Positions 23,219 through 54,660 of a stretch of 64,000 nucleotides of DNA are shown in pieces (within the stretch, counting starts at the first letter, position 1; each line of letters begins with the position of its first letter). This DNA comes from Pirellulales bacterium. Its GTDB lineage: Bacteria > Planctomycetota > Planctomycetia > Pirellulales > JALHPA01. Location: contig JANRLT010000008.1 in assembly GCA_033762255.1 (NCBI GenBank), positions 124,001 through 188,000 on the forward strand, written 5' to 3'. The notes beneath the pieces were generated by a model, which had not been told where the DNA came from, made no database searches, and worked only from the letters and a program-made list of their open reading frames with translations. Made by a program: the position numbers and the translations under genes.

Positions 23219-23624
23219 GGATTAGCAGAGGGGGGAAAGAAGGGACAGTTTCGTAGATTGTGAAATTCTTCACAAACCCCCAGATAACCCAATAGCTCCA
23301 TTTTCTCATTCCTTTTAACCCCTCAGGCTGTAAATATGTATCGATTTTGTTGATTTTTTTACTCATTTGTTGCAATATCTCCACTTTTTAAGTACGAATT
23401 AGATATGCCTAACTTTTTCGTAATAATGCCCGGGGGGGCATGATTACGCTTGTTTCGACCTCATCTACTGGTTTTATCGTTTTTATCCTTTGGATAAGAC
23501 GGATTACCTTAGTAAGCGTCGTATTAGTGCATTACTTATCTTGGTTTACTAATGTCCCGGCAGCTAGAGAGATTTGCCCAAAATCTTTCGCTGTAATACT
23601 TTGTATCTATTTCTGGAGTACTTC
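23219..23624. other. AT-rich leader region of the giant surface protein
   Basis: 406 bases, AT-rich, with no credible gene. It contains the hairpin at 23420-23447 and ends with a good ribosome-binding site (GGAG, 23615-23618) 6 bases before the ATG at 23625. The promoter of the giant gene probably lies here, but I cannot point to a clear -35/-10 pair. Confidence 0.5.
23420..23447. promoter_or_regulatory. Imperfect 12-bp hairpin with GGGG loop
   Basis: GTAATAATGCCC (23420-23431) pairs with GGGCATGATTAC (23436-23447) at 11 of 12 positions around a GGGG loop. No T-run follows, so it is a weak terminator candidate for the PhoD-type gene. Its place 180 bases before the giant gene would also suit a leader structure or an operator. 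Confidence 0.4.
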
Positions 23625-37833: not shown

Positions 37834-38117
37834 GGCTGCGACCAGTAAGGGCGACAGAGCTATTGTGGCCGGTGGGGACAGATCATACTCGCGTGGATTT
37901 ACGCGGTAAAACCGATTGTAACAATTATTCGCCTCTCCTCCAAGCAAGCCCGTCCACTCGGGGGGAATTTTGCCCGGGACTTTGTCGCGTTTTTCCGACG
38001 TACATTCTTTTAGTCGACACTCAAATCCTGGCAGGTCGGATAGGCCCATGTAGCTAAGACCAAAATGGTTCTGACTTGTGGCGGATGAGCTTTGCATTTT
38101 TATTATCATTTATCGCC

Positions 38118-39236
38118 ATGTCGCCCCACTTCCCCACTCCGGCCTGGCAAGAACTGCTAACCGCCGTCATTGTCCACAATGCGTCCGATTTGCACCTGAC
38201 CGAAGGGGTGGCGGCCTATCTGCGCGTGGATAATGAATTACGAGCGTTTCCCGAATTATGCCAAGGTAAAGGGGAAATCGACCAATTACTCAAAGATTTG
38301 CTCAGCCCGTCCCAAAGGGAGAAATATCACGCCCTGTCACAACTGGATCTGGCTTTTTTTAGTCCGGGACATGGGCGATTCCGGGTGAATCTATATCGTC
38401 AGCGGGGGTCGTCGGCCCTGGCCGTGCGGCGGTTGGATGAAAATTACCGTTCATTCGACGCCCTTCATTTGCCCGTGCAATTAGAGGCGCTCACCCGCTT
38501 TCCCGATGGTCTGGTGCTGGTTACGGGGCCAACGGGAAGCGGCAAATCAACAACCTTGGCGACGATGTTGCACCAGATCAACCTGTTTAGAGCTTGCCAT
38601 ATCATCACCATCGAGGATCCCATTGAGTATATTCACCATAACCACAATAGCCTGGTGCATCAGCGGGAAGTCCATTCTGACGTGCCCAGCTTTGCCGCCG
38701 CGGTGACCGCCGCCCTGCGCGAAGACCCGGATGTGCTGCTGGTGGGGGAAATGCGCGACCTCGAGACAATGCGCGCCACCTTAATTGCGGCCGAAACTGG
38801 TCACCTGGTGTTTTCCACCCTGCATACCAATGACGTGCCGGGCACCATCAGCCGGTTGGTCAACGCATTTCCCGGTGATGAACAAATTTTAGTCCGCGAG
38901 CAACTTTCCCGCGGGTTGCGCGCGATTGTCAGCCAACGATTGCAAACCGTTAGCGGAGGCCGGGGGCGAGTACCCATTTGCGAAATCTTGCGGGTAACGC
39001 CCGCCGTGGCCAATTTGATCCGTACCGGCCAACTCCACCAACTCACCAGCCAAATGCAGACAGGCTCGGCCGAGGGGATGCTAATTGCCGAGCAGTCCCT
39101 GGCCGAATGCGTGGTCAAAGGCCAATTGACCAAAGGGGAGGCTTTACGGCTAGCCCGGGACGAATCAATTTTTGAGCAGCGCTTGCAGATGACGGCCAAT
39201 CAACCCCGAGGATTCCCTCTACTGGCTAGAAAATAG
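38118..39236 (+). CDS. PilT-type retraction ATPase
   Basis: A 372-residue hexameric ATPase of the PilT/GspE superfamily, in the PilT branch that depolymerises type IV pili. The N-terminal PAS-like domain includes ASDLHL. Walker A is GPTGSGKST (about 137-145). The Asp box is IEDPIEYIHHN, the Walker B region is VLLVGEMRD, and the His box is VFSTLHTND. ATG 38118 follows the rules for the family start; the frame is open 14 codons earlier. It lies about 8 kb from the secretion/pilus block, separated by the lipoprotein and beta-helix genes, which read the other way. Presence of a PilT favours a dynamic pilus over a pure type II secretion role for the block. Confidence 0.9.
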   Translation: MSPHFPTPAWQELLTAVIVHNASDLHLTEGVAAYLRVDNELRAFPELCQGKGEIDQLLKDLLSPSQREKYHALSQLDLAFFSPGHGRFRVNLYRQRGSSALAVRRLDENYRSFDALHLPVQLEALTRFPDGLVLVTGPTGSGKSTTLATMLHQINLFRACHIITIEDPIEYIHHNHNSLVHQREVHSDVPSFAAAVTAALREDPDVLLVGEMRDLETMRATLIAAETGHLVFSTLHTNDVPGTISRLVNAFPGDEQILVREQLSRGLRAIVSQRLQTVSGGRGRVPICEILRVTPAVANLIRTGQLHQLTSQMQTGSAEGMLIAEQSLAECVVKGQLTKGEALRLARDESIFEQRLQMTANQPRGFPLLARK

Positions 39237-39349: not shown

Positions 39350-39835
39350 TCAACGTAGCGAGGGAATTTCTATCGCTGGCTGTGGCAAAGCGAGTGGCGG
39401 CTCTACCGGGTTTACAGCGGGCAATAACTGGGGGGCTTCGGAATGGGAAATCAGCGCGGGAAATGGTAAGGATGGAAATTGCGGTTGGGGAGGCGCGGTC
39501 CCCAAATTTTTGCCCAAGGGATATTGTTGCTCCGCGAGGGATGGGTTTTCCGTCATATCCCCGGCATCGCTAGCCGTCACCGGGGGAGGCAATTGTTCGC
39601 TGGTTAAAAGGCCCGCCTGCGGATCGGGAAACGGAGGCGAATCGGGAAATTCCGCGGGAGCAATACTTTCTTCAGACAGGGGTTGAATCCGCGCGTCCGC
39701 GGCCGCGTCCTGGAGCGCTGTGACCGCTGGATGCGGCTCGCTCGTGGCGGTGGCCTGCTGTTGGCAGCCGCCACAGGCAACCAGTCCCAACCCCAAGAGC
39801 AGCCCCATCGCAATTAATTCTTTGGTGCTACACAT
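39350..39835 (-). CDS. Proline-rich lipoprotein
   Basis: A 161-residue predicted lipoprotein. The lipobox LVAC puts the acylated cysteine at residue 21 after a clear hydrophobic signal. The mature part is rich in proline, glutamate and serine and probably unstructured, with PxP spacing reminiscent of cell-wall- or peptidoglycan-spanning linkers. No known domain is visible. It lies 132 bases downstream of the beta-helix gene on the same strand and may share its transcript. Confidence 0.65.
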   Translation of the reverse strand: MCSTKELIAMGLLLGLGLVACGGCQQQATATSEPHPAVTALQDAAADARIQPLSEESIAPAEFPDSPPFPDPQAGLLTSEQLPPPVTASDAGDMTENPSLAEQQYPLGKNLGTAPPQPQFPSLPFPALISHSEAPQLLPAVNPVEPPLALPQPAIEIPSLR

Positions 39836-39967
39836 AGTTTTTCACTTGTGAAAAATGCATTTTGCCAATGACGGTAAAGTAAACCCGCAACCAGGATTAT
39901 CCCAGTGTAAAAATCAATTTCCCTAGCAAACTCCCTGTCCCCGAGAAGGTGCCGCAAAGTTAGCGGG

Positions 39968-42900
39968 TCATTTTTGCTCGCCCCACTTGAGCACGCGCAG
40001 CGAGCCATCGACGGAGGTAAATTCATAAGCTCCCATTTCCCATCCGCGGTACGTCCCCCGCCGCTGGCCCAAGATATCAAAAGGGGAAGCGGCATCCTCC
40101 GTTCCGGCGTTAATAGCCGGCGATCCCTTGGCCAGGGAAAAATCTCCTCCCAGCAAGTTTTTAAACCGGGGAGGTTTGATTAAACCCGTGGTCCCTTTAA
40201 GATCCTCATCCGTCGCTAGCGGGTGATAGTAATGCCGGCTGTGCAAAAAGGTCAGATTATGCGAACCAGTAAACTGAACCGGCAATTCCAAATAAAATCC
40301 GTACGGCCCATTATGGGAAATAATGTTATTGTGCGCGGCCAACGAACCATTTTGGGCGTAAAGGCCGAAGTTGGCATTGCGCGCGATGGTGTTGTTCCAT
40401 ACCGTATGCGTCCCGGGGGAATTATAAAATGCGACGCCATAGGCGTTATTGGTAATGAGGTTGTTACGCAGGGTGGTATTGACCAGGCTGTCGCAGCGCA
40501 CGCCGATGTAGGCGTTGTTGCTGGCCTGCGTATTTGTCACACTTGCCCGATTTTGCTGGCTGCAGACGATGCCGTAGCCCTTATTGCGGCTGGCGTGGGA
40601 ACGATCAATGGTGGTGGAATTGTAGGCAGTATAAATCCCATGGCTGCCAGTATCTAACTGTTGATCCGTGGCTGTGCAATTGGTAAAGATCGCCTGGCAA
40701 TCATCGACCCCCACATAGTTCCCGCCGACCTGGGCATACCTACCAAAAGCCAGCATGCCATAGGCGTTTTGTACAGCTTGGCAATTGGCAAACTCCGCCC
40801 GCTTGACCGATGTCACATAATAGGCCCAGTTGGTAGCGGTTCCCTTGACCAGACAGGCATCCGCCACCAGGGAATCCAAATAATGGGCCTGAATTCCACT
40901 GCCAGCCGCGGAATCCAAGACCGAGACATTGCGCAGTTCGGCCGTCCCCCCTTGACAAGCCAAATACGCCCCGGTTCCCTCGTTTTCCTGAAATTTGCAG
41001 TTGGTCAGCAGATAGCGAAACCGTCGACTGTCCGTGGTGGGATTGGTTAATTCTAAAACCGTGGCGCCCCACTTTTGCGGCTTTCCCGCGCTGTCCGGCC
41101 AACGACCGTAGCAATTACGGCGAAAGTCACAATCCGTCAAGGTGGCGTCCCCATTCCAGACCAGCGCTCCCGCGAGGCCATTGTTGCGTATGTTAAGTTT
41201 ATCCAAAGTAATGTTGAGCGCGTAACTTTCGAGTCCCCGCCACCCGTTATCGCTAAAGGAGCAATTGGCCACCGAGACCGGAATGCGCCGATTCGTGGTC
41301 TGCCAATTGTAAGAACTGTCAATGTACGCGCCACTAGCGCGGTTCTGGCTAAGGTCGCAGTTGACAATTTCCAACGCGTCGGGATTTTTCCAACGCACGT
41401 CGGGATGAGAGTTTGCCACCCAGGTTTCATAGGCTCCCCACGCGCTTTGCAGGCCATACCAGCCTTGCTTTATCGTGGAGTTTGCCACGGTGACCTTACC
41501 CTGGGGCTGGTTTAAATACACGCCCCCCCGCAAAGTCGCACGATCGATGGTCACATGGTGCGGAGCATCAAAGGCCAAAGCCCAGTTGGTATTGCCGTCG
41601 CTCGCGCAATTCCAGTTTCGCACGGTCACGCCGTGCGGTTGCCACTGATAGTAATTGCGATTGGTCGCGGGATCATAAATCCCATAATGCATGTGATAAA
41701 AGTGGATTCCCCGGTCCTTATTATTATTCACGGTCAACCCCAGGGAAGCATCCAGTACAATCTCCCGTTGGGGCCAGTAAAACTCGATGCCCACGCCGTA
41801 TTTATCCCCCGTGCCAAACTGATTGGCGTTGGCCACGACATAACCATTATTACTGCAACTGATATTTAATGGCTTGCGGGTGGTATCGAGCCAACCATTA
41901 GCCAAATGCAGTCCCCGCGCGCGGTTGTTATCGCATGTCAGGCTTTTCAGGGGGTAGGTGTAATTCCCCGGATAAGCCCGGCTGTCGGCGTCAAAAATGA
42001 CCGACGTGGCGGTCATCCCATATAGATTTTCATTGCACACCACATTCTCTAGTTCCAGGCTCTCCACGGTTTTTCTTCCGCGATACGCGGCGGTCGCGGG
42101 CCACTGGGTGGTGACCTGCAGCCACAATCCTGTGTCGGTATTTTGCACATTGCGCAAGTTGGTAAATTGATGGTGGCTATTGCGGTCCAACAGACAGCCA
42201 TACTTATTTGCCTGGCAGGTTACCCCGTCCAACGTGACTTGTCCGGAATACGAATATACTCCCGCCTCGCGATTATCATGCAGCCGGGAATCGCGAATTG
42301 TCAATTTACTGTCGGTATTCACCACGCCATAGGCCTGATTGCCGATGTCATAACCTTCGATTTCCAAGTGCCCGGTTTGTTCCTCCCAATAACCCTGGTT
42401 ATAAATCCCATAGTAATTCCCTTCGATTGCCGCAAATTCGCGCTGCCGGGCCAGCAGCAGGTCGCAATCCAACAAACTGACGCCGACCGAGTAATTATTG
42501 GCAACCGTATTTTGGGACAAATCCGCCCGCTCCCGCGAGATGCGGGCCAACCGCAGCCCCGCCTCACCCGAACGGCCATAATCGCCGTTATTTTCAAATC
42601 GGCAATTCTGAATGGTCACCGGGACCGGCAGTAATCGCCCGTAAACATTGTATTCGGTATGCCAGTTCCAACTGGGATCGTTGACCCCGGCCGCTGGCGC
42701 GGGACGGCGGGGAGATTTTTGCCCTTCCACAAATAAGCCCACGCCGTACCAGTTGGTGGCATTATGTGAAAACTCGCTATTTACCGCCGTAAATCCATAC
42801 GACCAGCTACAGTACGCCCCGTAGATGCTGTTGTAACTAAGGTTGCAATGGGTGAAGGTGGGATTCGCCCAGGTGGTATACACGCCATTCCAGTTTTTAT

Positions 42901-44413
42901 ACAATTCCAGCCGGTCAAAGCGGCATTCCAAGGGGTTTTTATCGTTGCCGCTGGCCAGGATGCACCACCACAAATTGCTAAAGGACAACTTTTGATCCGC
43001 CGAAAAATCCATGCGGCTGCAATTCCAGCCCACTTCAATACCTTGGGAATAGCTCTCAAACTGGCGTTTGTCGTTGAGTTGCGTATTTCCTTCAAATGAG
43101 ATTTCGTTTAATTCCAGATTATCACTGGCGACTAATAATCCCCGCCGCAAATTTTTTAACGCGCAGTGGGAAACGGTCCCGCGCGGATCGGGATGGTCAT
43201 GGCGGCAGGTGGCCAGGGGGTTGTGGTTGGTCGGCGCGGAAAAAACCGTCGCGTAAATCCCCCAATTATCATTCAGTCCCCAATCCGCCGCATCCGGATG
43301 GGTCAATTCGCATTTGGCGATGTTGATTTCCTCGGCATGGGCCTGCAAATTATACCGACAATTGTCAAAACTGTTCCCCACGGCCGTTACGCCGTATATC
43401 CAAGAGGTGCACAGGGCGATCCCCGTGCAGTTGCGAAACGTGCAAGATTCGACCGTTAGTTGGGTATTTGAATATTTGGAATTATTGTCGCTGCCATTGC
43501 CAGAGGCATAGACCTGGTACACCGTTCGATAGACATAGGGGGACATGTCTGTCCATTTAGCCAATTCCGCGACAGAAACATCATACAAATTCCCCGTGTT
43601 GTCAAACACGCAATTCGTGATGGTCGTATTGGTCAAATTGGTCAAAATACTATAGCAACTGTTGGTATAGGTGGGGGATTTGGGCGTGCGAAACGCGCAA
43701 TCCCAAATCCGCAAACCACTCCCCAACAGGCTATAAAGTTGGATATAACGGGTTTCCTGAAAACCGCACTGCGTGACGCTGGTGTCCGCGCACGATTCTA
43801 AATATAGCGCGTATAAGTGATTGTGGAACTGGCAATTGTGTAACAACGTGCCGCTACACGAGCTAAGATAGACTCCGTACGGCCATATCGCGCGGGATGC
43901 GCTTTGAAAGTAACTGTTGTGGGCGTCCGCGGATTTTACAACGGAATAATCCAGGTAAGTCCCCAGCGGGTTTTCCACAAATTGCAGGCCGCTCAGCACG
44001 ACTCGGGTGCAGCCGTTAATGTGCATCGCCCAACGATTGGAAGTAGCAATGGATAGAATCGACACATTTCCCGCGTCGCCGCTATACTTACCCGTGGTAT
44101 CGCCAAAAATAACCAGGGGGGCCTTTTCTGTCGCCGCCACTTTGGATAGATACAGCGTGTCGGCTTCCGCATATGTCCCCCCCCCGACGATAATTGTCAC
44201 GCCTGATCCCGCTTGCTTGAGCGCGCGGGTCAAGGTGCGAAAGGCCCGGGCCGGGGAGGAACCATCCGCGGAATCATTCCCGGACATTCGCACATAGTAT
44301 TTGACGCCGCGTTCCCAGTTGGGAGAAAGTTTATCCAGCGTCTGCGCCGGCAATGCCCCACTTAGAAAAAAATGCAAAAACAGCATCATTCCCGCGCATA
44401 TCTTGGATTGCAT
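39968..44413 (-). CDS. Exported 1481-residue parallel beta-helix protein
   Basis: A very long exported protein. A signal peptide (1-24, cleavage near LPAQT) is followed by the entry segment KYYVRMSGNDSADGSSPARA and the GGTYAE motif typical of right-handed beta-helices. Well over a thousand residues of irregular helix coils follow, with asparagine and cysteine ladders (NCxF, NNxx). The C-terminus INAGTEDAAS...GWEMGAYEF matches the terminal anchor domain (choice-of-anchor Q type) of such proteins. Right-handed beta-helices are typical of pectate lyases, adhesins and surface polysaccharide-active proteins; no catalytic set is evident. It lies between two lipoprotein genes and divergent from the secretion/pilus genes, making it a candidate cargo of that system. 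Confidence 0.82.
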   Translation of the reverse strand: MQSKICAGMMLFLHFFLSGALPAQTLDKLSPNWERGVKYYVRMSGNDSADGSSPARAFRTLTRALKQAGSGVTIIVGGGTYAEADTLYLSKVAATEKAPLVIFGDTTGKYSGDAGNVSILSIATSNRWAMHINGCTRVVLSGLQFVENPLGTYLDYSVVKSADAHNSYFQSASRAIWPYGVYLSSCSGTLLHNCQFHNHLYALYLESCADTSVTQCGFQETRYIQLYSLLGSGLRIWDCAFRTPKSPTYTNSCYSILTNLTNTTITNCVFDNTGNLYDVSVAELAKWTDMSPYVYRTVYQVYASGNGSDNNSKYSNTQLTVESCTFRNCTGIALCTSWIYGVTAVGNSFDNCRYNLQAHAEEINIAKCELTHPDAADWGLNDNWGIYATVFSAPTNHNPLATCRHDHPDPRGTVSHCALKNLRRGLLVASDNLELNEISFEGNTQLNDKRQFESYSQGIEVGWNCSRMDFSADQKLSFSNLWWCILASGNDKNPLECRFDRLELYKNWNGVYTTWANPTFTHCNLSYNSIYGAYCSWSYGFTAVNSEFSHNATNWYGVGLFVEGQKSPRRPAPAAGVNDPSWNWHTEYNVYGRLLPVPVTIQNCRFENNGDYGRSGEAGLRLARISRERADLSQNTVANNYSVGVSLLDCDLLLARQREFAAIEGNYYGIYNQGYWEEQTGHLEIEGYDIGNQAYGVVNTDSKLTIRDSRLHDNREAGVYSYSGQVTLDGVTCQANKYGCLLDRNSHHQFTNLRNVQNTDTGLWLQVTTQWPATAAYRGRKTVESLELENVVCNENLYGMTATSVIFDADSRAYPGNYTYPLKSLTCDNNRARGLHLANGWLDTTRKPLNISCSNNGYVVANANQFGTGDKYGVGIEFYWPQREIVLDASLGLTVNNNKDRGIHFYHMHYGIYDPATNRNYYQWQPHGVTVRNWNCASDGNTNWALAFDAPHHVTIDRATLRGGVYLNQPQGKVTVANSTIKQGWYGLQSAWGAYETWVANSHPDVRWKNPDALEIVNCDLSQNRASGAYIDSSYNWQTTNRRIPVSVANCSFSDNGWRGLESYALNITLDKLNIRNNGLAGALVWNGDATLTDCDFRRNCYGRWPDSAGKPQKWGATVLELTNPTTDSRRFRYLLTNCKFQENEGTGAYLACQGGTAELRNVSVLDSAAGSGIQAHYLDSLVADACLVKGTATNWAYYVTSVKRAEFANCQAVQNAYGMLAFGRYAQVGGNYVGVDDCQAIFTNCTATDQQLDTGSHGIYTAYNSTTIDRSHASRNKGYGIVCSQQNRASVTNTQASNNAYIGVRCDSLVNTTLRNNLITNNAYGVAFYNSPGTHTVWNNTIARNANFGLYAQNGSLAAHNNIISHNGPYGFYLELPVQFTGSHNLTFLHSRHYYHPLATDEDLKGTTGLIKPPRFKNLLGGDFSLAKGSPAINAGTEDAASPFDILGQRRGTYRGWEMGAYEFTSVDGSLRVLKWGEQK

Positions 44414-44510
44414 AGTTCACTCCCGTAGGGGATTAGCATCACATCCCGTCTGCTAGATAAAATTCCCAATGATTGATTACCCGCAGGTTACGCACGCCAT
44501 GGAATTTAGA

Positions 44511-45575
44511 TCAATTGGGAGGCCCCGCGATCCCGCCGGGCGTTCCCGGTAAACCAACCCCCGGAATTCCGGTCCCGGGTAAGCCCGGCGGTGCCATGTT
44601 GAGGGTGGGCATAACAGGTAATGTCGAATTCAGCTCCTGGTTTGATCCATTCATGCCGGGCAAGGGGACGGCCCCCATTCCCGACAAGCCCGGTGTATTT
44701 GTGACGGGGGGCAAAGCAGGCGCTGGGCCCGCGACCGTGGTTAAATTGCCAATCGCAGGGGGAGGGGGACCATAATTGGAAGCATAACTTCCGCCTCCGC
44801 TCACCGGGGTTGTACGTTCCAGTGAATAGGGATTTCCCCCGATGCTGGCGGTATTGGCTTCGTGTAGCCAATCCTGGGCAAACAGTCGCGTCTGCCATTT
44901 TTCCGAATAGAGTTGAAATGTAACGCTTTGCTTACCTAATTCCACGACTTGGATCTGATCCACGTAGTCTCCCGCGGCCAGAGCTTTGACTTCTCCCTCG
45001 AACTCGACCAAAACCTGCGGCTGGCCGACCTGGACAAAGCCAATGACCCGTAATTTGGGTTTTTCCTGGGTAGTAACCGGCACCGGTTGTTTGACTAGCG
45101 CGGTGGGATCCAGACTGGCTATTGGCAGCGGAACGTCGGGAGGATTAAACATGGCGTCGGCGTGCGACTTGGATGGTTTATTTTGTTTACCCTGGGTGGC
45201 AGGTAAGCGTTGTACCGATGGCTCGGTGGCGACGGTGGATGGCTCCAGGGTGATAGGTCCCACCGGAAGAGAACTCGTTGCCAGATTAGTCCGTGACACA
45301 ATCGCCACCGGGGAAGCAGTCTTAGCCTTGGCTGGCGGCGCTTTGTTTGGGTCAACTGCCCAGGTTGCAACGGCTGATCCAAGCTCGCGCGCGGGCAATT
45401 CAGGTGTGGATGTTGGAGGATTTGCCCCCGTGTCGGTGACGGCGTGGGGAGCGTTGGAGTGAGTGACGTTGTCGGGCGCTTTGACCGCGGTGGCCGCCTG
45501 GCCGCCACAGCCGGTGATAAACGCTAAAGACGCCCCTAAGGCACCCAAGGCCATGATTGCCTGCCGCATAACCAT
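44511..45575 (-). CDS. PilP-like lipoprotein
   Basis: A 354-residue lipoprotein. The lipobox ITGC gives the acylated cysteine at 23. A low-complexity region (about 30-170) precedes a compact domain near 175-250 (LRVIGFVQVGQPQVLVEFEG and ALAAGDYVD) that follows the beta pattern of PilP/GspC-type proteins. Those link inner-membrane assembly parts to the secretin. The C-terminus is glycine- and proline-rich. It is divergent from the secretion/pilus genes and shares their 507-base promoter region. The PilP assignment is by pattern and position; similarity is moderate. Confidence 0.55.
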   Translation of the reverse strand: MVMRQAIMALGALGASLAFITGCGGQAATAVKAPDNVTHSNAPHAVTDTGANPPTSTPELPARELGSAVATWAVDPNKAPPAKAKTASPVAIVSRTNLATSSLPVGPITLEPSTVATEPSVQRLPATQGKQNKPSKSHADAMFNPPDVPLPIASLDPTALVKQPVPVTTQEKPKLRVIGFVQVGQPQVLVEFEGEVKALAAGDYVDQIQVVELGKQSVTFQLYSEKWQTRLFAQDWLHEANTASIGGNPYSLERTTPVSGGGSYASNYGPPPPAIGNLTTVAGPAPALPPVTNTPGLSGMGAVPLPGMNGSNQELNSTLPVMPTLNMAPPGLPGTGIPGVGLPGTPGGIAGPPN

Positions 45576-46082: not shown

Positions 46083-46505
46083 ATGCCGCTGATATTAATG
46101 CTGCAACCCGAAGCCCTGATCGCGGAGATTACCGCGTTTCGGCTGGAGCTGCTGGGTTATCAGGTGCACACGGTTGAATCGGCCGCTGCCGCCGAAACGT
46201 TCCTGAACGCAACAGTTCCGGATTTGATCCTTTTGGATATGCAATTGCCCGGCAAATCGAGCCTGACTTTTTGCGAGCGGGTGGGAAACAACGCCGCCTG
46301 GAATCAAATTCCCCTGCTGGGAATGCTGCTCGATGGCGATTTGGAAAATGTGCAAAAAGCGTTTCAGGCGGGCATCCAAGATTTGATCTTGATCCCGTTT
46401 GACCCCAGCGTGCTCGAGGAAAAAATCCTCCATCTGATTCAACCAAAAGACTCTCCTGCGACCACCCTGCCGACGGGTGGAATCACGCGGGGAATTTCCA
46501 ATTAA
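46083..46505 (+). CDS. Degenerate receiver-domain protein
   Basis: A 140-residue stand-alone receiver (REC) domain at the head of the secretion/pilus genes. The acceptor aspartate is kept in LLDMQLPG (about residue 52). The metal-binding acidic pair at the start is replaced by LQPE, and the conserved lysine near the end is isoleucine (LILIPFDP). Without those residues phosphorylation in the normal way is unlikely. It probably acts as a protein-binding scaffold or a constitutive regulator. A short basic tail follows. The next gene, GspE-like, starts 95 bases downstream on the same strand. Confidence 0.75.
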   Translation: MPLILMLQPEALIAEITAFRLELLGYQVHTVESAAAAETFLNATVPDLILLDMQLPGKSSLTFCERVGNNAAWNQIPLLGMLLDGDLENVQKAFQAGIQDLILIPFDPSVLEEKILHLIQPKDSPATTLPTGGITRGISN

Positions 46506-46600: not shown

Positions 46601-48289
46601 ATGGCATCCGCAAGACTGGGCGATATTTTGATCGAACGGGGGTGGGTCTCGGCCGAGGCCCTCGACTCCGTGCTAAAGCTGCAAGAAGCCCGCGGGGGGA
46701 TGCTGGGCATGTTTTTGGTCAAGCAGGGCTTGATCAATTCACGGCAACTGGGAGAGGCACTGTCGATCCAGCTCAAAGTCCCCTTTCAGCCGATCGACCC
46801 CCAGCTAATCAATCCGCAGGTGGTACGGCTACTTCCCGAGCGTTTGGCCCGACAGCGAAAAATGGCGCCCGTTACCATCAACGCCGGATCGCTTACCCTG
46901 GCCATGGCCGCCCCGGACGACATCGAGGCCATCTCCGAAGTGGAACTGATCACCGGCTACCATGTCACGCCGGTCGTGGGCATTCCCACTGATATTGAGG
47001 ATTTGCTGGATCGCGGATATGACGAGCGGATCACCGCCCGGCAAACCATTGTCGATCTGAAATTGGCGGAACTGCGTGAAAAGCGGGAACGAGGGGAGTT
47101 AGCGGAAACAAACGCGGTCGAGGATGAAGACGCCCCCGTGGTGAAGCTGGTCCGCTCTATTCTAATGGGGGCGGTCAACGCGGGAGCGAGCGACATCCAC
47201 CTGGAACCGCACCAACCCCAAATGCGCGTCCGCTATCGCGTGGATGGCCAATTGCAGCAGGTCATGACCATTCCCACCCAAAGCGAGGAAGCCGTGGTGG
47301 GCCGGATCAAAGTCATGGCCGATATGGATACCACCGAAAAGCGTAAACCGCAGGACGGCAACCTGTCGCTGGAGGAAAAAGGGATGCGGGCCAGCTTTCG
47401 CGTCTCCACCATTCCCACCGTCGATGGCGAAAAAGTCGTCATGCGCGTCATCGACGAAGACAGCAAAGTCTTTACCTTTGCCGCCTTGGGCATGCCCGAA
47501 AAGCAAACCGCCATTGTGCGCGAGCTAATTAATAAGCCGCATGGCATGATCGTGATGACTGGTCCCACCGGTTCGGGCAAAACCACGACCATGTACACCA
47601 TGCTCACCAATATCAACGCCAACGAGAACAACATTTCCACCGTCGAGGATCCGGTGGAATTCAAGCTGCCGGGCATCAATCAGGTGCATGCCAATAGCGA
47701 ACATGGAATGGGCTTTGCCAACGCGCTGAAATACCTGATGCGCCAAGACCCCGATGTCATCATGGTCGGCGAGATTCGCGACGCCGAAACCGCTCAAACC
47801 GCGGTCCAGGCCGCCCTGACCGGCCACTTGCTGATTAGCACCCTACACACCAACGACGCCGTGGGGGCGGTCCAACGTCTGCAAGACCTGGGCGTGGATA
47901 AATTCAAGATTGGCGGCTCGTTGCTGGCGGCGATCGCCCAGCGGCTGCTGCGCAAGATTTGCGTGCATTGCAAGGAACCCGCGCCGCTCAACGAAAAGCT
48001 GCTGACGCAGATCGCCCACGGCCGCAAAATTCCCCAGCAACCTCGGTTTTTTGCGGGAAAAGGTTGCCCAAAGTGCCTGGGGACGGGCTTTATGGGCCGA
48101 GTGCCGGTGTACGAGATCATGGTTGTCACGCCTAACGTCGCGAATGCTATCGAAACCGGTCTGCCTTACTCCAAGCTACGGGATTTGGCGATTTTGGAGG
48201 GGATGGAGGATTTGACCACCAATGGGTTGGCGTTGGCACTGGCGGGCGAGACCACCCTCGAAGAAGTTTATTATCGGTTATCCAGCTAA
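46601..48289 (+). CDS. GspE/PilB-type assembly ATPase
   Basis: A 562-residue cytoplasmic ATPase that powers pseudopilus or pilus extension. The N-terminal MshEN-like domain (about 1-140) resembles the c-di-GMP- or platform-binding module of PilB/MshE. The catalytic core shows Walker A GPTGSGKTT (about 323-331), the Asp box VEDPVEFKLPGI, VIMVGEIRDAET and STLHTNDA. A zinc finger with CVHC (about 453-456) and CPKC (about 488-491) lies near the C-terminus, as in GspE/PilB. The length is normal. It is the first of a run of same-strand genes extending to the secretin. Confidence 0.94.
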   Translation: MASARLGDILIERGWVSAEALDSVLKLQEARGGMLGMFLVKQGLINSRQLGEALSIQLKVPFQPIDPQLINPQVVRLLPERLARQRKMAPVTINAGSLTLAMAAPDDIEAISEVELITGYHVTPVVGIPTDIEDLLDRGYDERITARQTIVDLKLAELREKRERGELAETNAVEDEDAPVVKLVRSILMGAVNAGASDIHLEPHQPQMRVRYRVDGQLQQVMTIPTQSEEAVVGRIKVMADMDTTEKRKPQDGNLSLEEKGMRASFRVSTIPTVDGEKVVMRVIDEDSKVFTFAALGMPEKQTAIVRELINKPHGMIVMTGPTGSGKTTTMYTMLTNINANENNISTVEDPVEFKLPGINQVHANSEHGMGFANALKYLMRQDPDVIMVGEIRDAETAQTAVQAALTGHLLISTLHTNDAVGAVQRLQDLGVDKFKIGGSLLAAIAQRLLRKICVHCKEPAPLNEKLLTQIAHGRKIPQQPRFFAGKGCPKCLGTGFMGRVPVYEIMVVTPNVANAIETGLPYSKLRDLAILEGMEDLTTNGLALALAGETTLEEVYYRLSS

Positions 48290-48320
48290 TTGCGGCAGAA
48301 CCACGGCGGGAGCATCACTT

Positions 48321-49463
48321 ATGGCACAGAGCACGTTACTGGCAGGCACCCCGGGGGAAATCTGGCAACAACTGGCCAGTATTCAGATCGGCGGGGCAAA
48401 AAATGGGCAGCCCACGCTAAAGCCGCGCGAAAAAATATTTATTTTTCGTAATATCGCCACATTGGTCGAAAACGGGTTGCCCTTGCCCAAAGCGCTGGAA
48501 ACACTGATCCAGGAAAGAAGCCTGTCGCGATTTGCCCCGATGCTGGGGAATATTCGCCAAAAAGTGGCGGGCGGGGACACCTTTAGCGCGGGGTTGTCCC
48601 TGTACCCGGAAACTTTTGGCGAAATGTTTATCAATCAGATCAAAGTGGGGGAACGTTCGGGGACGCTCCCCGCGACCATTGAGCGGATTGTGTACCAGCT
48701 GGAACACGCCGATAACTTAAAAAATCAAATCATCAAGAAGCTGACTTACCCGGCGATTTTGTGCGTGGCGGGGGGGGCATCGGTGGCGTTTATGATCACG
48801 TTTGTGGTGCCCACATTTGAAAAGACCTACCAAGAAGCCGGAGCCAAACTTCCCGCCATCACGGAATTTTTAATCAATTGTGGTTGGTTCGCCCAACATT
48901 ATGGCTGGTTTATTGTGCTGGTGGTGATGGGGCTGGTGCTCTCGCTGGTGTTTTCCCGCCGTCATCAGCGGATCCGATTTTGGATGGATCAGCAACTGTT
49001 GCGCGTGCCGATCTTGGGTGACACGCTTAAAAATATCGCGGTTCTCCAGTTCATGGAGGTGCTGGGAAATTTAATGGAGTCCGGATTTACCATCGTCGAA
49101 GCGCTCCATTCCTGCGCGCGGTCCATCAATAACCTGGCGGTGCGGCGCAGCGTGGAACAACTGCATAGCGCCGTGCTGCGCGGAGAACGCTTTAGCCAGG
49201 AACTGGAACGCCATGATGATCTTTTTCCCCCGATCGTCAAGCAACTCACGATCGTCGGCGAAAAAACCGGCACGCTATCCAAATGCACCGAGCATATCCG
49301 CGCGCACCTGCGGCGGGAAGTGGAACGGACCCTGTCCATCATGGTCGGGGCGATCGAACCCATCATGACGCTGGGATTGGCCGCGGCTATTGGAACGATC
49401 CTGCTGGCGATTTACCTGCCCATGTTTGACATGATCGGCACCATGGGCGAGACTCCCAACTAA
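48321..49463 (+). CDS. GspF/PilC-type inner-membrane platform protein
   Basis: About 380 residues of the polytopic platform that docks the ATPase. Two GspF/PilC domains (about 60-185 and 265-370), each with FxxxL and G(E/D)xSGTLP-like motifs (GERSGTLPATIE and GEKTGTLSKCTE), flank the membrane helices. ATG 48321 has GGGAG 8 bases upstream and lies 31 bases after the GspE stop. The ORF is open earlier, overlapping gspE, but that part lacks pattern. The length is normal. Confidence 0.92.
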   Translation: MAQSTLLAGTPGEIWQQLASIQIGGAKNGQPTLKPREKIFIFRNIATLVENGLPLPKALETLIQERSLSRFAPMLGNIRQKVAGGDTFSAGLSLYPETFGEMFINQIKVGERSGTLPATIERIVYQLEHADNLKNQIIKKLTYPAILCVAGGASVAFMITFVVPTFEKTYQEAGAKLPAITEFLINCGWFAQHYGWFIVLVVMGLVLSLVFSRRHQRIRFWMDQQLLRVPILGDTLKNIAVLQFMEVLGNLMESGFTIVEALHSCARSINNLAVRRSVEQLHSAVLRGERFSQELERHDDLFPPIVKQLTIVGEKTGTLSKCTEHIRAHLRREVERTLSIMVGAIEPIMTLGLAAAIGTILLAIYLPMFDMIGTMGETPN

Positions 49464-49472
49464 CGAGCAACC

Positions 49473-49820
49473 ATGACCTTGTCACAACTTGATTTCCCTT
49501 GCCGCGGGCGCGGGGGATTTAACCTGCTGGAAATGCTGGCCACGGTGACCATTATTGGCATCGTCGCGATGATCGTATTGCCGCGGTTCGGCGACCATGC
49601 CCGCCAATCGCAAACAGAGTCTTGCGCCTTGCAACGGTTGAACCTGGAAGTGCAAGCGCAATTGTGGTTTCGGGGCAAAGGGACCTGGCCGGCTGGGAAT
49701 TTACAAGATCTGGGTAACGACCCCGCCTATCTGCCGGATGGCTTGCCGGCGTGTCCCGTCGATGGCAGCGCTTACATGTTAGATCCCGTCACTCATCGCA
49801 TCCAGGGACACCAACATTAG
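49473..49820 (+). CDS. GspG-like major pseudopilin, copy 1
   Basis: A 115-residue prepilin. The type III signal has a short basic leader, then cleavage at G|FNLLE with Glu at +5, then a hydrophobic helix. The C-terminal part carries the pattern KGTWPAGNL, YLPDGLP, CPVDGSAYMLD that is shared with the next gene. It starts 9 bases after the GspF stop, so translation is likely coupled. Prepilin peptidase would process it; none is in the window. Confidence 0.86.
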   Translation: MTLSQLDFPCRGRGGFNLLEMLATVTIIGIVAMIVLPRFGDHARQSQTESCALQRLNLEVQAQLWFRGKGTWPAGNLQDLGNDPAYLPDGLPACPVDGSAYMLDPVTHRIQGHQH

Positions 49821-50037
49821 CGGACGCCGCCCGATACCCCGCGTAATCGGCAAAATCGAACCTGCGTTTTACCGCTTTTTTAGCGCTATTAACCGATTTA
49901 TGGCACGCGATAAGCTACATATGAGTAGCGAAACTTGAAATGGGGCTAAAGCAGCATCCTTACGGCAATTGATCGTCTTTTGCCATCGACAAAAATCAGC
50001 AGGCGATTACCACATCTTTGCAGGAGAAATGATAGCC

Positions 50038-50367
50038 ATGTTTTTACGTAGTTCACACAAGCGAAATCGAAAGGGATTTTCGTTGTTGGAATTGTTGGCC
50101 GTGATCACGATTTTGGGCATTATCGCCGTCGTGGTCGTGCCCCGTATTTCCACCAGCAGCGCCCGGGCCAAAAGCGAGGCGGATAAGCAGAATCGTTCGG
50201 AAATCAATTCCGCGGTCGAGCGCTGGTACTTTGAAAAAGGGACCTGGCCGGCGAATAACCTGTCGGACATCGGCGCTGATATAAATTATTTTCCCAGCGG
50301 CATCCCCACCAACCCCGTTAATGGCAAGGCTTATACCCTGGACGGTACCACCCGCCGGGTGAAGTAG
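50038..50367 (+). CDS. GspG-like major pseudopilin, copy 2
   Basis: About 109 residues. Leader MFLRSSHKRNRKG, cleavage at G|FSLLE, hydrophobic helix with the typical GIIAVVVVPRI. The C-terminal domain repeats the KGTWPANNL...YFPSGIP..PVNGKAYTLD pattern of the preceding gene, so the two are paralogues, probably from a tandem duplication. ATG 50038 is 11 bases past AGGAG (50022-50026); an in-frame ATG at 50029 is close behind that site and possible. A spacer of 217 bases precedes it, longer than elsewhere in the block, so it may have its own promoter. Confidence 0.87.
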   Translation: MFLRSSHKRNRKGFSLLELLAVITILGIIAVVVVPRISTSSARAKSEADKQNRSEINSAVERWYFEKGTWPANNLSDIGADINYFPSGIPTNPVNGKAYTLDGTTRRVK

Positions 50368-50422
50368 CTCTTGGCCCATGTTGGCGGTTGAGTTCTCCGG
50401 AGTATTTCCGCAACTTTTCTGG

Positions 50423-50920
50423 ATGGCCGCCACGATGCGCGCATGCACCTATCAAAAACAACGGCGGGGGGTTACGCTTGTCGAGCTCCTCGCCGTTGTT
50501 GTGTTATTGGGGATCTTTGGCAGTCTGGCGATGATGCGTTATGGCCGCGCAATCCTGGGCGACTTTGGGGCGGGGGCGGACGCCACTAAATTGGCCAATG
50601 GCTTGAATTACGCCAAACGGACTGCCATCATGTCCGGCAATCCCCATGCGTTGCAGTTTATTCCCTCGGCGGATGGCAGCGTCGCGGTCGGCGGTTTTCA
50701 GTTGGTCCAACTGGATGACTCTCTGCGGCAAATCGCGGTCGTGGATGGGCCGTTTTATTTTGCGCCGGAAGTCGCCGTCACATCCGTCTTGACGCAGATT
50801 ACGTTCAATTTTGAGGGGCAATCCCTGCAGGCGGCCAGTGTCACGCTGGCGGGCCCGGATATTAGCTACCAAGTCACCGTGCAACCCATTAACGGGGGCA
50901 TTAGCACGCGCAAACTATAA
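50423..50920 (+). CDS. GspH-like minor pseudopilin
   Basis: About 165 residues. Cleavage at G|VTLVE with Glu at +5 after a basic leader (KQRRG), then a hydrophobic helix. A beta-rich C-terminal part follows with the spacing of GspH/FimT, for example NGLNYAKRTAIMSGNPHAL near 55-75, which matches the family's 'AR..A..r...V.L' stretch. The start is uncertain: ATG codons at 50423, 50435 and 50378 all fit. Minor pseudopilins cap and prime the pseudopilus. Confidence 0.78.
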   Translation: MAATMRACTYQKQRRGVTLVELLAVVVLLGIFGSLAMMRYGRAILGDFGAGADATKLANGLNYAKRTAIMSGNPHALQFIPSADGSVAVGGFQLVQLDDSLRQIAVVDGPFYFAPEVAVTSVLTQITFNFEGQSLQAASVTLAGPDISYQVTVQPINGGISTRKL

Positions 50921-51104
50921 TTGGCGGGCGTAATTTTCTCAATTTATCAGGGTACGGGGCAAGACCCCCGGAAAATCCGTTTTTTTCAGCCTATTCCGGC
51001 GCCAGGCCGCCATCCGTGGCCTACATTCTAGTACGCGGTTTTTTGCGCTAAGCATGAAAGGTATCCCCCCGCGCCAATCAACGATTTTTTACGATTTCAT
51101 TGCC

Positions 51105-51578
51105 ATGCATTTCCGTCGCCCTAGCAACAAACCTTGCCGCGGATCGGCCCGCCGTACCGGGCAAACGCTGCTAGAATTGGTGGCGGCCTCGGGAATCATC
51201 GCCATCGCCTTGACTCCAGCGCTGCGCATCATGCGGGACAGCCTCACCGTCAGCCGCGACCTGGAAACGGCAAATGCCCTGGCGACCCTGAGTGTGGACA
51301 AACTTGAGGAGTATCTGTCGCGGACATGTGGTCAATGGGGAACCGACGATGCCAGTGGGAATTTTGCCGACCGGGGTTATCCCCAACTCCGCTACACGCT
51401 CAGCCGCGGTGATGACGCTAGCGAAGGGGGAATTCCCGATCGGCTAATGGTCCTTACAGCGGTGTCTTGGGACGACCGCAATGGTAATTCCGTCCTTGAT
51501 CAAAATGAAAAAAGCGTCCGTTTTTCCACAAAGCTATCCCGTAGCGTCAGCTATCACTATGAAGCCCGGGGAGAATAA
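51105..51578 (+). CDS. GspI-like minor pseudopilin
   Basis: About 157 residues from ATG 51105. The prepilin signal reads RRTG|QTLLE: Glu at +5 is kept but the +1 residue is glutamine where phenylalanine (or methionine/leucine) is usual. The helix AASGIIAIALTPALRIM and a GspI/PilV-like C-terminal part follow. The GspJ-like gene begins inside its last 20 bases, so the two are translationally coupled. Assignment to I is by order and size. Confidence 0.72.
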   Translation: MHFRRPSNKPCRGSARRTGQTLLELVAASGIIAIALTPALRIMRDSLTVSRDLETANALATLSVDKLEEYLSRTCGQWGTDDASGNFADRGYPQLRYTLSRGDDASEGGIPDRLMVLTAVSWDDRNGNSVLDQNEKSVRFSTKLSRSVSYHYEARGE

Positions 51579-52080
51579 AAAACGCCGCGGGTTGACCTTG
51601 CTGGAATTGGTCATCTCGTGCTCGATGCTGGCGATCTTGTTGACCGCCATGAGCACCGCACTGCGCACCGGGCGGCAGGCCTGGGAAGCGCATCAGGGGG
51701 ATGCCTCCCGATTGGAGGCCCAACATGGGGTCCTGCGGCATATCGTGCGCCAGGCGCGTCAGGCAACCAGTGTTAGCGCTGTTACCGCGGAAGGCGTTAC
51801 CACGGGCAGCCTCAGCCTAAAAATGCCTGATCAAAGCATCGTCACCTGGTCGCGGGACTCCGCTAATCAGGTTTGGTACGGCACGGGAGGGGCGATTGAA
51901 CCCCTGGCGGCGGATATTACGCATTTATCCTTTACCGGTTACAAAGCGGATGGCCAAACAACCACCACGGTTCCCGCCGAAATTCGGTCCCTGAGGATCA
52001 GCGTTGGCGTTCAATTACCGCGGGAAGTCAACGGCGCAAAAACCCTTTTTTCCTTGGTTTGGATTCGGAGTTGGCAATGA
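51559..52080 (+). CDS. GspJ-like minor pseudopilin
   Basis: About 173 residues. Leader MKPGENKKRRG, cleavage at G|LTLLE, helix LVISCSMLAILLTAM. The mature domain contains the helical RLEAQHGVLRHIVRQAR and the beta-rich second half common to GspJ/PilW. ATG 51559 gives a short leader; the frame is open further back inside the GspI-like gene. Its last bases overlap the next start as ATGA at 52077-52080. Confidence 0.78.
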   Translation: MKPGENKKRRGLTLLELVISCSMLAILLTAMSTALRTGRQAWEAHQGDASRLEAQHGVLRHIVRQARQATSVSAVTAEGVTTGSLSLKMPDQSIVTWSRDSANQVWYGTGGAIEPLAADITHLSFTGYKADGQTTTTVPAEIRSLRISVGVQLPREVNGAKTLFSLVWIRSWQ

Positions 52081-52502
52081 CCGGCGCGATTATCAATTCC
52101 ATGCCCCCCGTATTATCACGCTTCCCGCGGTCCCGCGGCGGAACCGATCGGCGCGCTGGGGCGGCCATGCTGATGGCCCTGTTTGTCATGACCGTAACAA
52201 CGATCATTGTCATCTCGATCGTGGATACCGAAATTTTGCAATATGCCTCGTTGCGTAATACGTTCGACTGGGACCGGGCCCGCTACCTGGCGGAAGCCGG
52301 CACCCAACATGCCTTTGCCGAATTAGAAAGTAACATCCAATGGCGGGAAGGCATTCCCCGCACCGAATTTCCCGCGGGAAGCGGGCAAAGCTATTCCGCC
52401 ACTGTCACGGACGGCCCGGCGGGCTCCGTGATCGTGACCAGTTGGGGCACGTCGGGAACGGTGACGCGCAGCCTGCAGACCACGCTCAAGCAAGGGGGCT
52501 AA
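52077..52502 (+). CDS. GspK/PilX-like minor component
   Basis: About 141 residues from ATG 52077, which overlaps the previous stop as ATGA. The leader DRRAG|AAMLMALFVMTV lacks Glu at +5, as is normal for GspK and PilX. The mature part includes YLAEAGTQHAFAELES, the helical stretch found after the PilX/GspK N-terminal helix ('AEAGlx.A...l'). It is much shorter than GspK (about 300 residues), so it is nearer PilX. It would be part of the tip complex. Confidence 0.72.
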   Translation: MTGAIINSMPPVLSRFPRSRGGTDRRAGAAMLMALFVMTVTTIIVISIVDTEILQYASLRNTFDWDRARYLAEAGTQHAFAELESNIQWREGIPRTEFPAGSGQSYSATVTDGPAGSVIVTSWGTSGTVTRSLQTTLKQGG

Positions 52503-52511
52503 CAGTCACAC

Positions 52512-54011
52512 ATGAAAAATCCCTTTATTAAATCCGCGTCATCACTCCGCCGCGAACTGGTTTTGCAAATCACCCGCAATACCGTCTTGGCCCTGGTGAC
52601 CGAACGTAGCGGTAAATATTCCGACACAAATGCCAAGTGGGTGCAACTTCCCTGGCAGGGACCGACGAATGGCTTGCCGGTGGGGAATGAAGCGGAAAAA
52701 CTCTCCGCGCTTTTACATTCCCTGGTCGAACAAGAAAAACTATCCGGATGCCGCACGTCGCTTAATCTCGCGGGAGACTTTTGCGTGACAAGGGTGGTGG
52801 CGGGAACCCACACCCACGTCCAACAAGAGTTGTTGCAGTTGCAGCAGCGCTGTGAACGCTATTTATCGCTTGGCTCCGGACCCAAAGCGATCGCTCAATC
52901 GCGGCATCCCTTGGATGCCCGGCGGGAAATCGCCTGGTTGACCGTGGCAAATCAAACCACGCTGCAAACCATGGTTGGCGGCATTGTCGCGGCGGGACTT
53001 AAGCTGGACTTGATCGAACATTCGCTCATCGCCCTCGCGCGGATCCTTGGCCAGCGGGGCTTGGACCAGCGGGCACCGGTCTTGATTATCGAAATCGGGT
53101 CTAATGGCGTGGATTTGGGCGTCACTTACCAGGGAAAGTTGCTGTTGGATTATCGACCGGGCGGGCTGAATCGCGTGGAAAAAATTCCCGCCATGCTGGA
53201 TTTGCACCTGGAGCGCATTCAACGCTACTGCCTGAGGATTCTTCAAAAAACCGACTTATCCATTGCCAAAATTGTACTGTGCGGCGAGCCGGAAGCAGTG
53301 GCCGCCGCCCAGCGGCAATTTGACCAGGCGGGGGGCCTGCGGGCCGAAATATTTACCCCCGTGGAGGGGACGCCCGACTGGAACTGGCCCGCCAACGCCG
53401 AACCCGGGGCGGAATTAACTTCGCTGGTGGGAACCTGCAAAGCCCGGCAAAATTTGCCAGGAGACGCGCAAGGTCCCAATCTTATGGATTTTCTCCACAA
53501 ATTATTCCGCGAACCGTTGTTGCCGCTGATTACCAAAAATTGCTGGCCGATCGCCGCGGCGGTCGCCCTGGTCGCCTGCCTATGGAGCCTCAACTGGTGG
53601 CAAGAATGGAAAAACCAGGACTTGGCCGCACGGTGCGAAGTGGCCACTTCCCAGGAATTGCGGGTCAAACAAATTCAATATCGCCTGGCTGAAATCGAGA
53701 CCAAAATCCGGCATTATGAACGTTTAGGCCAAGGACTGGAAAAAGCGGCCTGGTCGGACTTGCTGGCAAAAGTGGGAGAATGCCTGCCCTCGGGCGTCTG
53801 GCTGGAAAATTTGCGTGTGGAACGGGATCGCAAATTGGTCCTTTCGGGACCTAGCCTGTCGGAGGGAGGGATTTACGAGTTTTTGAAAAACCTGAAAACC
53901 ATCAGTGAATTAAAAAACATTGACTTAGAGGCGACCCATCCCACGCAATTGAAATACGGTGCCGCCACGGTTTTTGACATTAAGGGAAACTTTGCCGATC
54001 GTAAGGAATAA
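52512..54011 (+). CDS. PilM-PilN-like (GspL-like) assembly protein
   Basis: A 499-residue protein joining an actin-like cytoplasmic domain with a membrane-anchored PilN-type part. Residues 1-310 follow the PilM/GspL actin-fold pattern, with the nucleotide-site-like motif EIGSNGVDLGV near 195-205. One transmembrane helix lies at about 350-368 (AAAVALVACLWSL). A coiled-coil (380-430) and a periplasmic beta domain end in FDIKGNF. In type IV pili PilM and PilN are separate proteins; GspL has them fused, so this resembles GspL. The gene begins 9 bases after the PilX-like stop. Confidence 0.72.
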   Translation: MKNPFIKSASSLRRELVLQITRNTVLALVTERSGKYSDTNAKWVQLPWQGPTNGLPVGNEAEKLSALLHSLVEQEKLSGCRTSLNLAGDFCVTRVVAGTHTHVQQELLQLQQRCERYLSLGSGPKAIAQSRHPLDARREIAWLTVANQTTLQTMVGGIVAAGLKLDLIEHSLIALARILGQRGLDQRAPVLIIEIGSNGVDLGVTYQGKLLLDYRPGGLNRVEKIPAMLDLHLERIQRYCLRILQKTDLSIAKIVLCGEPEAVAAAQRQFDQAGGLRAEIFTPVEGTPDWNWPANAEPGAELTSLVGTCKARQNLPGDAQGPNLMDFLHKLFREPLLPLITKNCWPIAAAVALVACLWSLNWWQEWKNQDLAARCEVATSQELRVKQIQYRLAEIETKIRHYERLGQGLEKAAWSDLLAKVGECLPSGVWLENLRVERDRKLVLSGPSLSEGGIYEFLKNLKTISELKNIDLEATHPTQLKYGAATVFDIKGNFADRKE

Positions 54012-54027
54012 CCTGGGAGACCCGGCC

Positions 54028-54660
54028 ATGCTGAATGAATCAATTGTGCGCGTTATGCTAACCCATCCCCGGCGATTTTGGGGCGTAATAGGCGTTACCG
54101 TCGGAATCTTGTTCCTTTGCGGACTACCAGAGGTCGATAAGTACAACGAACTCCGGGCACAGGCGCGGGATTTCCGAGCCGAGCTAGCGCAGTTGGGCGC
54201 CCTGGACCAGCGATTTGCCAGGTACCAGCAACAGTTGGATCGGCGGCTGACCAGCTTGCGCGAATTGGAAAAAAAAGCCCTCACGCCGGAGAATGTCCAG
54301 GAGTTCCGGGAAAACATGGTCGAGTTGACGCGGGATAGCGGCTGCACGCTGCGTAGGATTCGCGTGCAGGATCCGCAATTGCGGGATTGGCTGGAAAACG
54401 ACGACCCCCTGCAATTTCACACCCCCACGGAGAAAGAAACCAAGACACCGTATCAATTGCAAACCCAGCAGCTTTCGATCCAGGTGACCGGACCATTGGC
54501 CAATATTCGGGCAATGCTGGACAAATTATCGCGCATGGATCGCTATTTTGACACCGCCGGCTTTGTGCTCAATCGTTCGAGTGAAGACACGGGCTTGGTG
54601 GATTTGGATTTGCAATTGTTGCTGTTTGATTTGGTTAAGCCTAGCACGGCGGCTAATTGA
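54028..54660 (+). CDS. PilO/GspM-like assembly protein
   Basis: About 210 residues. One N-terminal membrane helix (about 18-33, VIGVTVGILFLCGL), then a charged coiled-coil (about 38-90) and a ferredoxin-like beta domain (about 95-205). This matches PilO/GspM, which pairs with PilN/GspL in the inner-membrane alignment complex. GGGAGA lies 9 bases before ATG 54028. It sits between the PilM/N-like and secretin genes, as in pilMNOPQ, but a PilP gene is missing here; the PilP-like gene is on the other strand at 44511. Confidence 0.76.
   Translation: MLNESIVRVMLTHPRRFWGVIGVTVGILFLCGLPEVDKYNELRAQARDFRAELAQLGALDQRFARYQQQLDRRLTSLRELEKKALTPENVQEFRENMVELTRDSGCTLRRIRVQDPQLRDWLENDDPLQFHTPTEKETKTPYQLQTQQLSIQVTGPLANIRAMLDKLSRMDRYFDTAGFVLNRSSEDTGLVDLDLQLLLFDLVKPSTAAN

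Follow-up and report, generated by a model that had tools for sequence, protein, structure and literature searches.

Does a giant beta-helix protein encoded beside a secretion machine represent the dedicated cargo of that machine, and by what feature would it be recognised? We have addressed this question for a locus in a 64 kb stretch of DNA (the window) from the 5.47 Mb genome of a bacterium whose relatives in the named collection are Pirellulales. The original prediction, made from the sequence alone, placed a parallel beta-helix giant with a signal peptide between two lipoproteins, divergent from a type II secretion/type IV pilus-like gene block, and interpreted the three proteins as a dedicated substrate and its anchors. 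Coordinates, Pfam matches and AlphaFold models confirm each element of this layout, the beta-helix gene and both flanking lipoprotein genes lying on the minus strand with their coordinates unchanged (Table 1). Promoter and terminator scans of the locus gave matches at chance level only and were uninformative with respect to operons.

Table 1. Features of the beta-helix locus and the adjacent machine, with positions in the window.
Feature	Position	Strand	Basis or remarks
PilT-like retraction ATPase, adjoining the cargo genes on the other side from the machine	38076..39236	+	T2SSE 2e-45
Proline-rich lipoprotein 2	39350..39835	-	161 aa, 17% Pro
Giant parallel beta-helix protein, proposed dedicated cargo	39968..44413	-	1481 aa, ATG start; Pfam, model, homologues by machine
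C-terminal tag GSLRVLKWGEQK	39971..40006	-	Common to relatives' beta-helix and LamG giants
Choice-of-anchor Q cap, beta-helix residues 1425-1465	40019..40141	-	NCBIfam NF041518 2.6e-7
Lipoprotein 1, PilP/GspC-like HR domain and proline-rich tail	44511..45575	-	354 aa, lipobox ITGC
Proline-rich C-terminal tail of lipoprotein 1	44514..44879	-	Comparison with homologues
HR domain of lipoprotein 1, residues 172-232	44880..45062	-	Six strands, AlphaFold pLDDT ~95
Response-regulator receiver domain gene, upstream of gspE	46083..46505	+	Pfam Response_reg 1.4e-13
GspE/PilB-like ATPase with MshEN domain	46601..48289	+	T2SSE 1.3e-124
GspF/PilC-like platform protein	48222..49463	+	T2SSF 5e-46
Six pseudopilin-like genes: two GspG-like, then H-, I-, J-, K-like	49473..52502	+	Pfam/NCBIfam, gene order
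PilM-PilN fusion (GspL-like)	52512..54011	+	Pfam PilN 2e-6; orthologues in 70/396 genomes
PilO/GspM-like protein	53959..54660	+	Inferred from position and order kept in relatives
Secretin (PilQ/GspD)	54704..57169	+	Pfam Secretin 1e-44; TIGR02515 4e-63

The divergent plus-strand block encodes a full machine, extending from the response regulator through the secretin, as judged by Pfam and NCBIfam matches and by gene order. Its predicted products correspond to the component set of type II secretion (secretin, GspE, GspF, GspG-K and GspL/M), with the H, I, J and K pseudopilin assignments resting on weak scores and position, and the machine either belongs to the type II/type IV pilus class or is closely sister to it. 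Among solved structures those nearest to the ATPase are PilF and PilB. A close homologue of the PilT-like gene adjoins the secretin in one relative (genome G143, locus L170), and among the machine loci read no PilT-like neighbour was found besides those of the window and G143. The ATPase and the PilT-like neighbour are more pilus-like than secretion-like in character, a point which counts against the reading preferred below.

The giant itself begins with a hydrophobic signal-like stretch. Pfam detects Beta_helix in eight stretches (5e-45), NosD (5e-22) and an N-terminal DUF1565 in the protein, and AlphaFold models its last 499 residues as a parallel beta-helix with pLDDT of 80-92 over the best part, the closest solved folds being beta-helix glycosidases, epimerases and phage tailspikes. 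Matches and model alike indicate that the protein is a member of the right-handed parallel beta-helix family.

Conservation of the neighbourhood depended strongly on sampling. A survey of 57 relatives returned weak and partial beta-helix matches only, together with a close secretin orthologue in nine genomes, and the resulting view that the beta-helix protein has no orthologue was overturned by wider sampling of 396 Pirellulales genomes. The PilM-PilN fusion, taken as the marker of the machine, is present in 70 of these genomes, and a beta-helix homologue, in most cases matching both ends of the window protein, occurs in 11, all of which fall among the 70. In 8 of the 11 the beta-helix gene adjoins gspE, and most of these share the window's layout, in which it directly follows the HR lipoprotein gene and diverges from gspE; gene order and strand are different in one of the eight (G143). 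It lies away from the machine in G187, G330 and G293. Scanning named genomes with the beta-helix protein as query found nothing; the major pseudopilin as query yielded the relatives' loci, and a window-like arrangement was observed in Rhodopirellula baltica BR-MGV (L305), Rhodopirellula sp. JC639 (L304) and SM50 (L307), as well as in Stieleria sedimenti (L310) and strains TBK1r (L308) and K23_9 (L306). In a GspE tree, the window falls inside a 17-member clade (support 100/97) containing 16 beta-helix carriers, from a family that differs from that of its clade-mates; G161, a further beta-helix case, lies outside this clade. The conservation anticipated by the original prediction is therefore found, both beside gspE in the homologue genomes and in named Rhodopirellula and Stieleria, and by these comparisons the beta-helix protein is a real partner of the machine in relatives.

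The PilP-like nature proposed for the upstream lipoprotein was confirmed at the level of fold. AlphaFold, run with 27 homologues, produced one confident domain (residues 172-232), most of the remaining protein being of low confidence. Foldseek returned PilP and GspC HR domains as the best solved matches to this domain, nearly all of the top solved folds being PilP, GspC or GspB, and VIA-align gave Z scores of 9.5 to the GspC HR domain (3oss_C), 8.2 to PilP within 3jc8, a model of the pilus machine, and 8.1 to PilP 2y4y, with unrelated rows at ~3.8. Sequence profiles, including Pfam, missed the domain and fold comparison recognised it; the predicted structure thus places lipoprotein 1 among PilP/GspC HR-domain proteins. 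A profile of the core of its homologues found the lipoprotein in ~50 genomes. A tailless form, with 1-16 residues after the HR domain, occurs in ~36 genomes having no detected beta-helix homologue, and in these its gene adjoins the secretin; four short-form table rows show long tails solely through a partial-domain pick. Genomes with the tailless form often hold LamG giants in place of the beta-helix protein. A tailed form is carried by 13 beta-helix genomes, the tail extending over 71-123 residues with 11-21% proline, and its gene is located on the gspE side in 12 of the 13 and adjoins the unlinked beta-helix gene in G293. Both forms are carried by G161. There is one exception, locus L322, which contains a tailed HR lipoprotein with no beta-helix gene in view, and this also runs against the preferred reading.

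Because lipoprotein 1 has a modelled PilP/GspC HR domain and a tailless homologue beside the secretin in ~36 relatives, it is best regarded as a machine part, the PilP/GspC (secretin-binding) subunit. Its role as an anchor for the beta-helix protein has consequently been dropped. The other supposed anchor, lipoprotein 2, has no family match in Pfam or NCBIfam; a similar proline-rich lipoprotein lacking an HR domain adjoins the beta-helix gene in G143 (locus L087, 12853-13275). Thus, of the interpretation of these genes as a substrate and its anchors, the anchors found no support, whereas the dedicated substrate gained strong comparative support from the neighbourhood kept in distant relatives, the GspE clade shared with carriers and a common C-terminal tag.

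This tag is found in giants of unrelated fold. In other genomes the slot beside gspE is occupied by unrelated giants, mostly LamG proteins, and these nearly always share with the beta-helix giants the terminal pattern G-[VIL]-[RK]-[IV]-[LI]-x-W-x-E-x-[RKQ]-COOH, represented by GSLRVLKWGEQK in the window, GARIISWQEIR in G024, GIRLIKWTEAR in G007, GGWRVIQWLEVR in G161 and GIKILKWVETR in G221. Over 49 tagged proteins the residue before the Trp is [KRQ] and the Trp is situated at -5 in 40, the Trp and Glu being partly fixed by how the 49 were selected. All 10 of the LamG giants first chosen by position carry the tag. It follows beta-helices with an anchor-Q cap, LamG domains, mixed beta-helix/LamG proteins and proteins with an N-terminal C-type lectin and a beta-helix, and in G161 it stands at the end of a different C-terminal region. 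Tagged giants usually number one, sometimes two, per genome. Where no giant adjoins gspE, many machine genomes encode a tagged giant elsewhere (G032, G087, G104, G155, G191, G022 and G368). The original prediction had regarded absence of the beta-helix gene from relatives that keep the secretion genes as refuting it; such absence is indeed observed in many genomes, yet many of them hold another giant with the same tag, and the idea of a dedicated substrate is therefore generalised, not refuted. Many tagged LamG genes are unlinked to the machine, a further point against the preferred reading. NCBIfam matches to "TafC" fell on LamG regions far below the cut-off and were rejected, and no literature on TafC was found. 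Literature searches of partial coverage found no earlier description of the tag.

Association of the tag with the machine was assessed at two scales. In the machine loci read, with ORFs counted from 300 residues upwards, the tag is present on 27 of 30 beta-helix/LamG proteins versus 0 of 574 others; the three untagged exceptions are a gene with a frame break near its end (L088), a protein with the motif 19 residues before the end (L313) and a PA14/LamG protein of the window encoded 17 kb away. Across the order, a strict DNA pattern was counted over the 396 genomes after removal of non-stops and short frames, and large tagged ORFs were detected in 31 of 70 machine genomes versus 2 of 326 others (Fisher p ~2e-24), a value that overstates independence because the genomes are related and the regex was drawn after the first sequences had been seen, the motif having been noticed in part of the same data. 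Of the two tagged genomes without the marker, G205 carries gspE on the contig of its tagged ORF (L301) and G209 is only 68% complete. Addition, by reading, of slot proteins with variant tags raises the number of tagged machine genomes to ~43 of 70; the remainder may have variant tags or none, a shortfall that also counts against the preferred reading. Pattern matches from genomes without the machine nearly all proved to be short ORFs or no ORF at all, and no tag was detected among the 493 LamG matches found in 44 such genomes. In the window's own genome, the beta-helix protein is the only convincing match to a relaxed pattern, other matches being rejected as a heparinase-like enzyme (L213) or as having no terminal stop (L212).

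Combined, the gene arrangement, the HR fold, the common tag and its co-occurrence with the machine suggest that the cluster probably encodes a type II/type IV pilus-like machine together with its own giant tagged cargo, either exported or mounted on a pseudopilus. The beta-helix protein would cross the inner membrane by means of its signal peptide and fold in the periplasm, where the short linear C-terminal tag would hand it to the machine, and it would then exit through the secretin or ride the pseudopilus tip. The HR domain of lipoprotein 1 would bind the secretin, and the candidate for the part facing the cargo is the proline-rich tail that the beta-helix lineage carries; the tailed lipoprotein is a putative cargo-specific version of the clamp subunit. 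We infer recognition of the tag by the machine, assistance from the tail and delivery of the protein to the cell surface or past it. The simplest account would be a machine that serves, in each genome, one or two giant cargo proteins bearing the tag. A more specific proposal, that a branch of Pirellulales machines uses a linear export tag of about ten residues on unrelated folds, plus a dedicated HR-lipoprotein adaptor for beta-helix cargo, is advanced tentatively, as we judge it slightly more apt to fail than to hold.

Type II systems of Dickeya export parallel beta-helix pectate lyases. The machine described here resembles type II secretion in its component set and in having an HR clamp subunit whose C-terminal part varies; of the parts of canonical systems, this one is the clearest candidate recruiter of cargo (PMC12369372). 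It differs in that the clamp is a PilP-like lipoprotein in which a proline-rich tail replaces the PDZ domain, and in that a linear C-terminal tag is common to unrelated folds, whereas canonical type II secretion has no linear universal secretion signal (PMC12369372). Since no linear signal is known, cargo choice by type II systems has been a long-standing open question, and the C-terminal tag would therefore constitute a testable exception: if the proposal is true, the tag acts as a plug-in address label, which systems of this class were thought to lack. With a short tag nearly confined to machine genomes, the cargo question becomes testable by single-residue changes and tag transplants, for which cultured environmental Rhodopirellula or Stieleria are candidate hosts. 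Through the tag, surface giants could also be identified in Planctomycetota, and large proteins might be exported with its aid.

Alternative explanations survive to different degrees. The strongest is that the machine builds a pilus or pseudopilus on which the giant is a PilY1-like tip adhesin, docked by its tag on the minor pseudopilin complex and retracted by the PilT-like ATPase. In its favour, PilB and PilF are the solved structures most like the ATPase, and a PilT-like gene adjoins the cargo genes in the window and the secretin in G143; the PilB-like ATPase with its MshEN domain, the PilP-like lipoprotein and the PilT-like neighbour all recall type IV pili. LamG, lectin and beta-helix folds are adhesive or sugar-binding, one or sometimes two tagged giants per genome would suit a tip protein, and several genomes have an extra GspG-like gene adjoining LamG giants. 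However, PilT-like neighbours are limited to two of the machine loci read, the K-like minor pseudopilin and the GspL-like fusion are secretion-type features, this fusion and the G-H-I-J-K-like pseudopilin set differ from type IV pili, and no PilY1 homology was found in the cargo. We consider a tip adhesin unlikely, although deserving of serious attention.

Improbable, by comparison, is that a protein outside the machine recognises the motif, for anchoring or processing, and that the machine merely occurs in the same hosts. Sorting tags of this logic are known: GlyGly-CTERM/rhombosortase and PEP-CTERM/exosortase systems likewise place a C-terminal tag on otherwise unrelated secreted proteins and were found via co-occurrence, and species with GlyGly-CTERM usually have type II secretion (PMC3237569). 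In contrast to those tags, the present motif occupies ~11 residues up to the last residue without a transmembrane helix or basic tail, is carried by usually one, sometimes two, cargo proteins per genome and is tied to a specific machine. The window protein ends in ...TSVDGSLRVLKWGEQK with no hydrophobic helix, and NCBIfam CTERM models had no match in it or in the tagged relatives scanned. Adjacency of tagged genes to the machine in many genomes, and the distribution of large tagged ORFs between machine and other genomes, also argue against a different reader. Type IX secretion of Bacteroidota is similar in that a C-terminal signal is read by an outer-membrane export machine. The type IX sorting signal is a folded domain of ~80 residues, and no NCBIfam model of it matched the window protein or any of the eight tagged relatives scanned. 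That a surface beta-helix gene lies by chance near a secretion operon, the motif being one family's inherited end, is very improbable. In its favour, many machine genomes lack a beta-helix and the tagged LamG proteins are relatives of one another, but the same end follows anchor-Q beta-helices, LamG domains and the different C-terminal region of G161, and the divergent arrangement with the HR lipoprotein is kept in separate families.

The type II secretion/type IV pilus-like machine is probably inactive in one relative (G007), because a DDE transposase gene interrupts its gspE. The LamG giant of this genome, which carries the C-terminal tag of the proposed cargo, and its PilP/GspC-like HR lipoprotein are both intact.

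The tag is absent from a 1860-residue protein of the window with PA14, glucose-sorbosone dehydrogenase-like, PKD, fn3 and LamG domains. A 1490-residue SdrD-B protein in G028, adjoining an HR lipoprotein and a secretin, bears PEP-CTERM in place of the tag and is a different sorting class at the same site. The beta-helix cargo of locus L313 carries the motif VRILDWGEM followed by 19 further residues, and so offers a natural test of the tag's dependence on a terminal position.

A 1981-residue beta-helix giant in G330, with a C-type lectin domain at its N-terminus, adjoins a separate PilB-PilT-PilB cluster, and two tailed HR lipoproteins are encoded in this genome (L147).

Coordinates of the features discussed
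Feature	Locus	Position
gspE, G007	L049	6950-9751
DDE transposase gene within gspE, G007	L049	8012-8992
Beta-helix giant, G330	L086	7807-13752
SdrD-B protein, G028	L050	3651-8123
PA14/LamG protein	window	23574-29156
Beta-helix cargo	L313	712-4296
AFRGYNxTNLGRTPELL gene, family f7	L125	3416-4561
AFRGYNxTNLGRTPELL gene, family f7	L128	8986-10131

A further GspG-like major pseudopilin lies immediately upstream of gspE on the opposite strand at nine loci (L128, L130, L132, L133, L137, L150, L152, L156 and L165), and in several of the genomes concerned it is adjacent to the LamG giant. A conserved gene of ~380 residues, containing AFRGYNxTNLGRTPELL, adjoins the machine at many loci of one family of relatives (f7; two examples tabulated). 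The planctomycete machine is also borne by a contig titled Candidatus Nealsonbacteria (L318), a bin name which is probably wrong.
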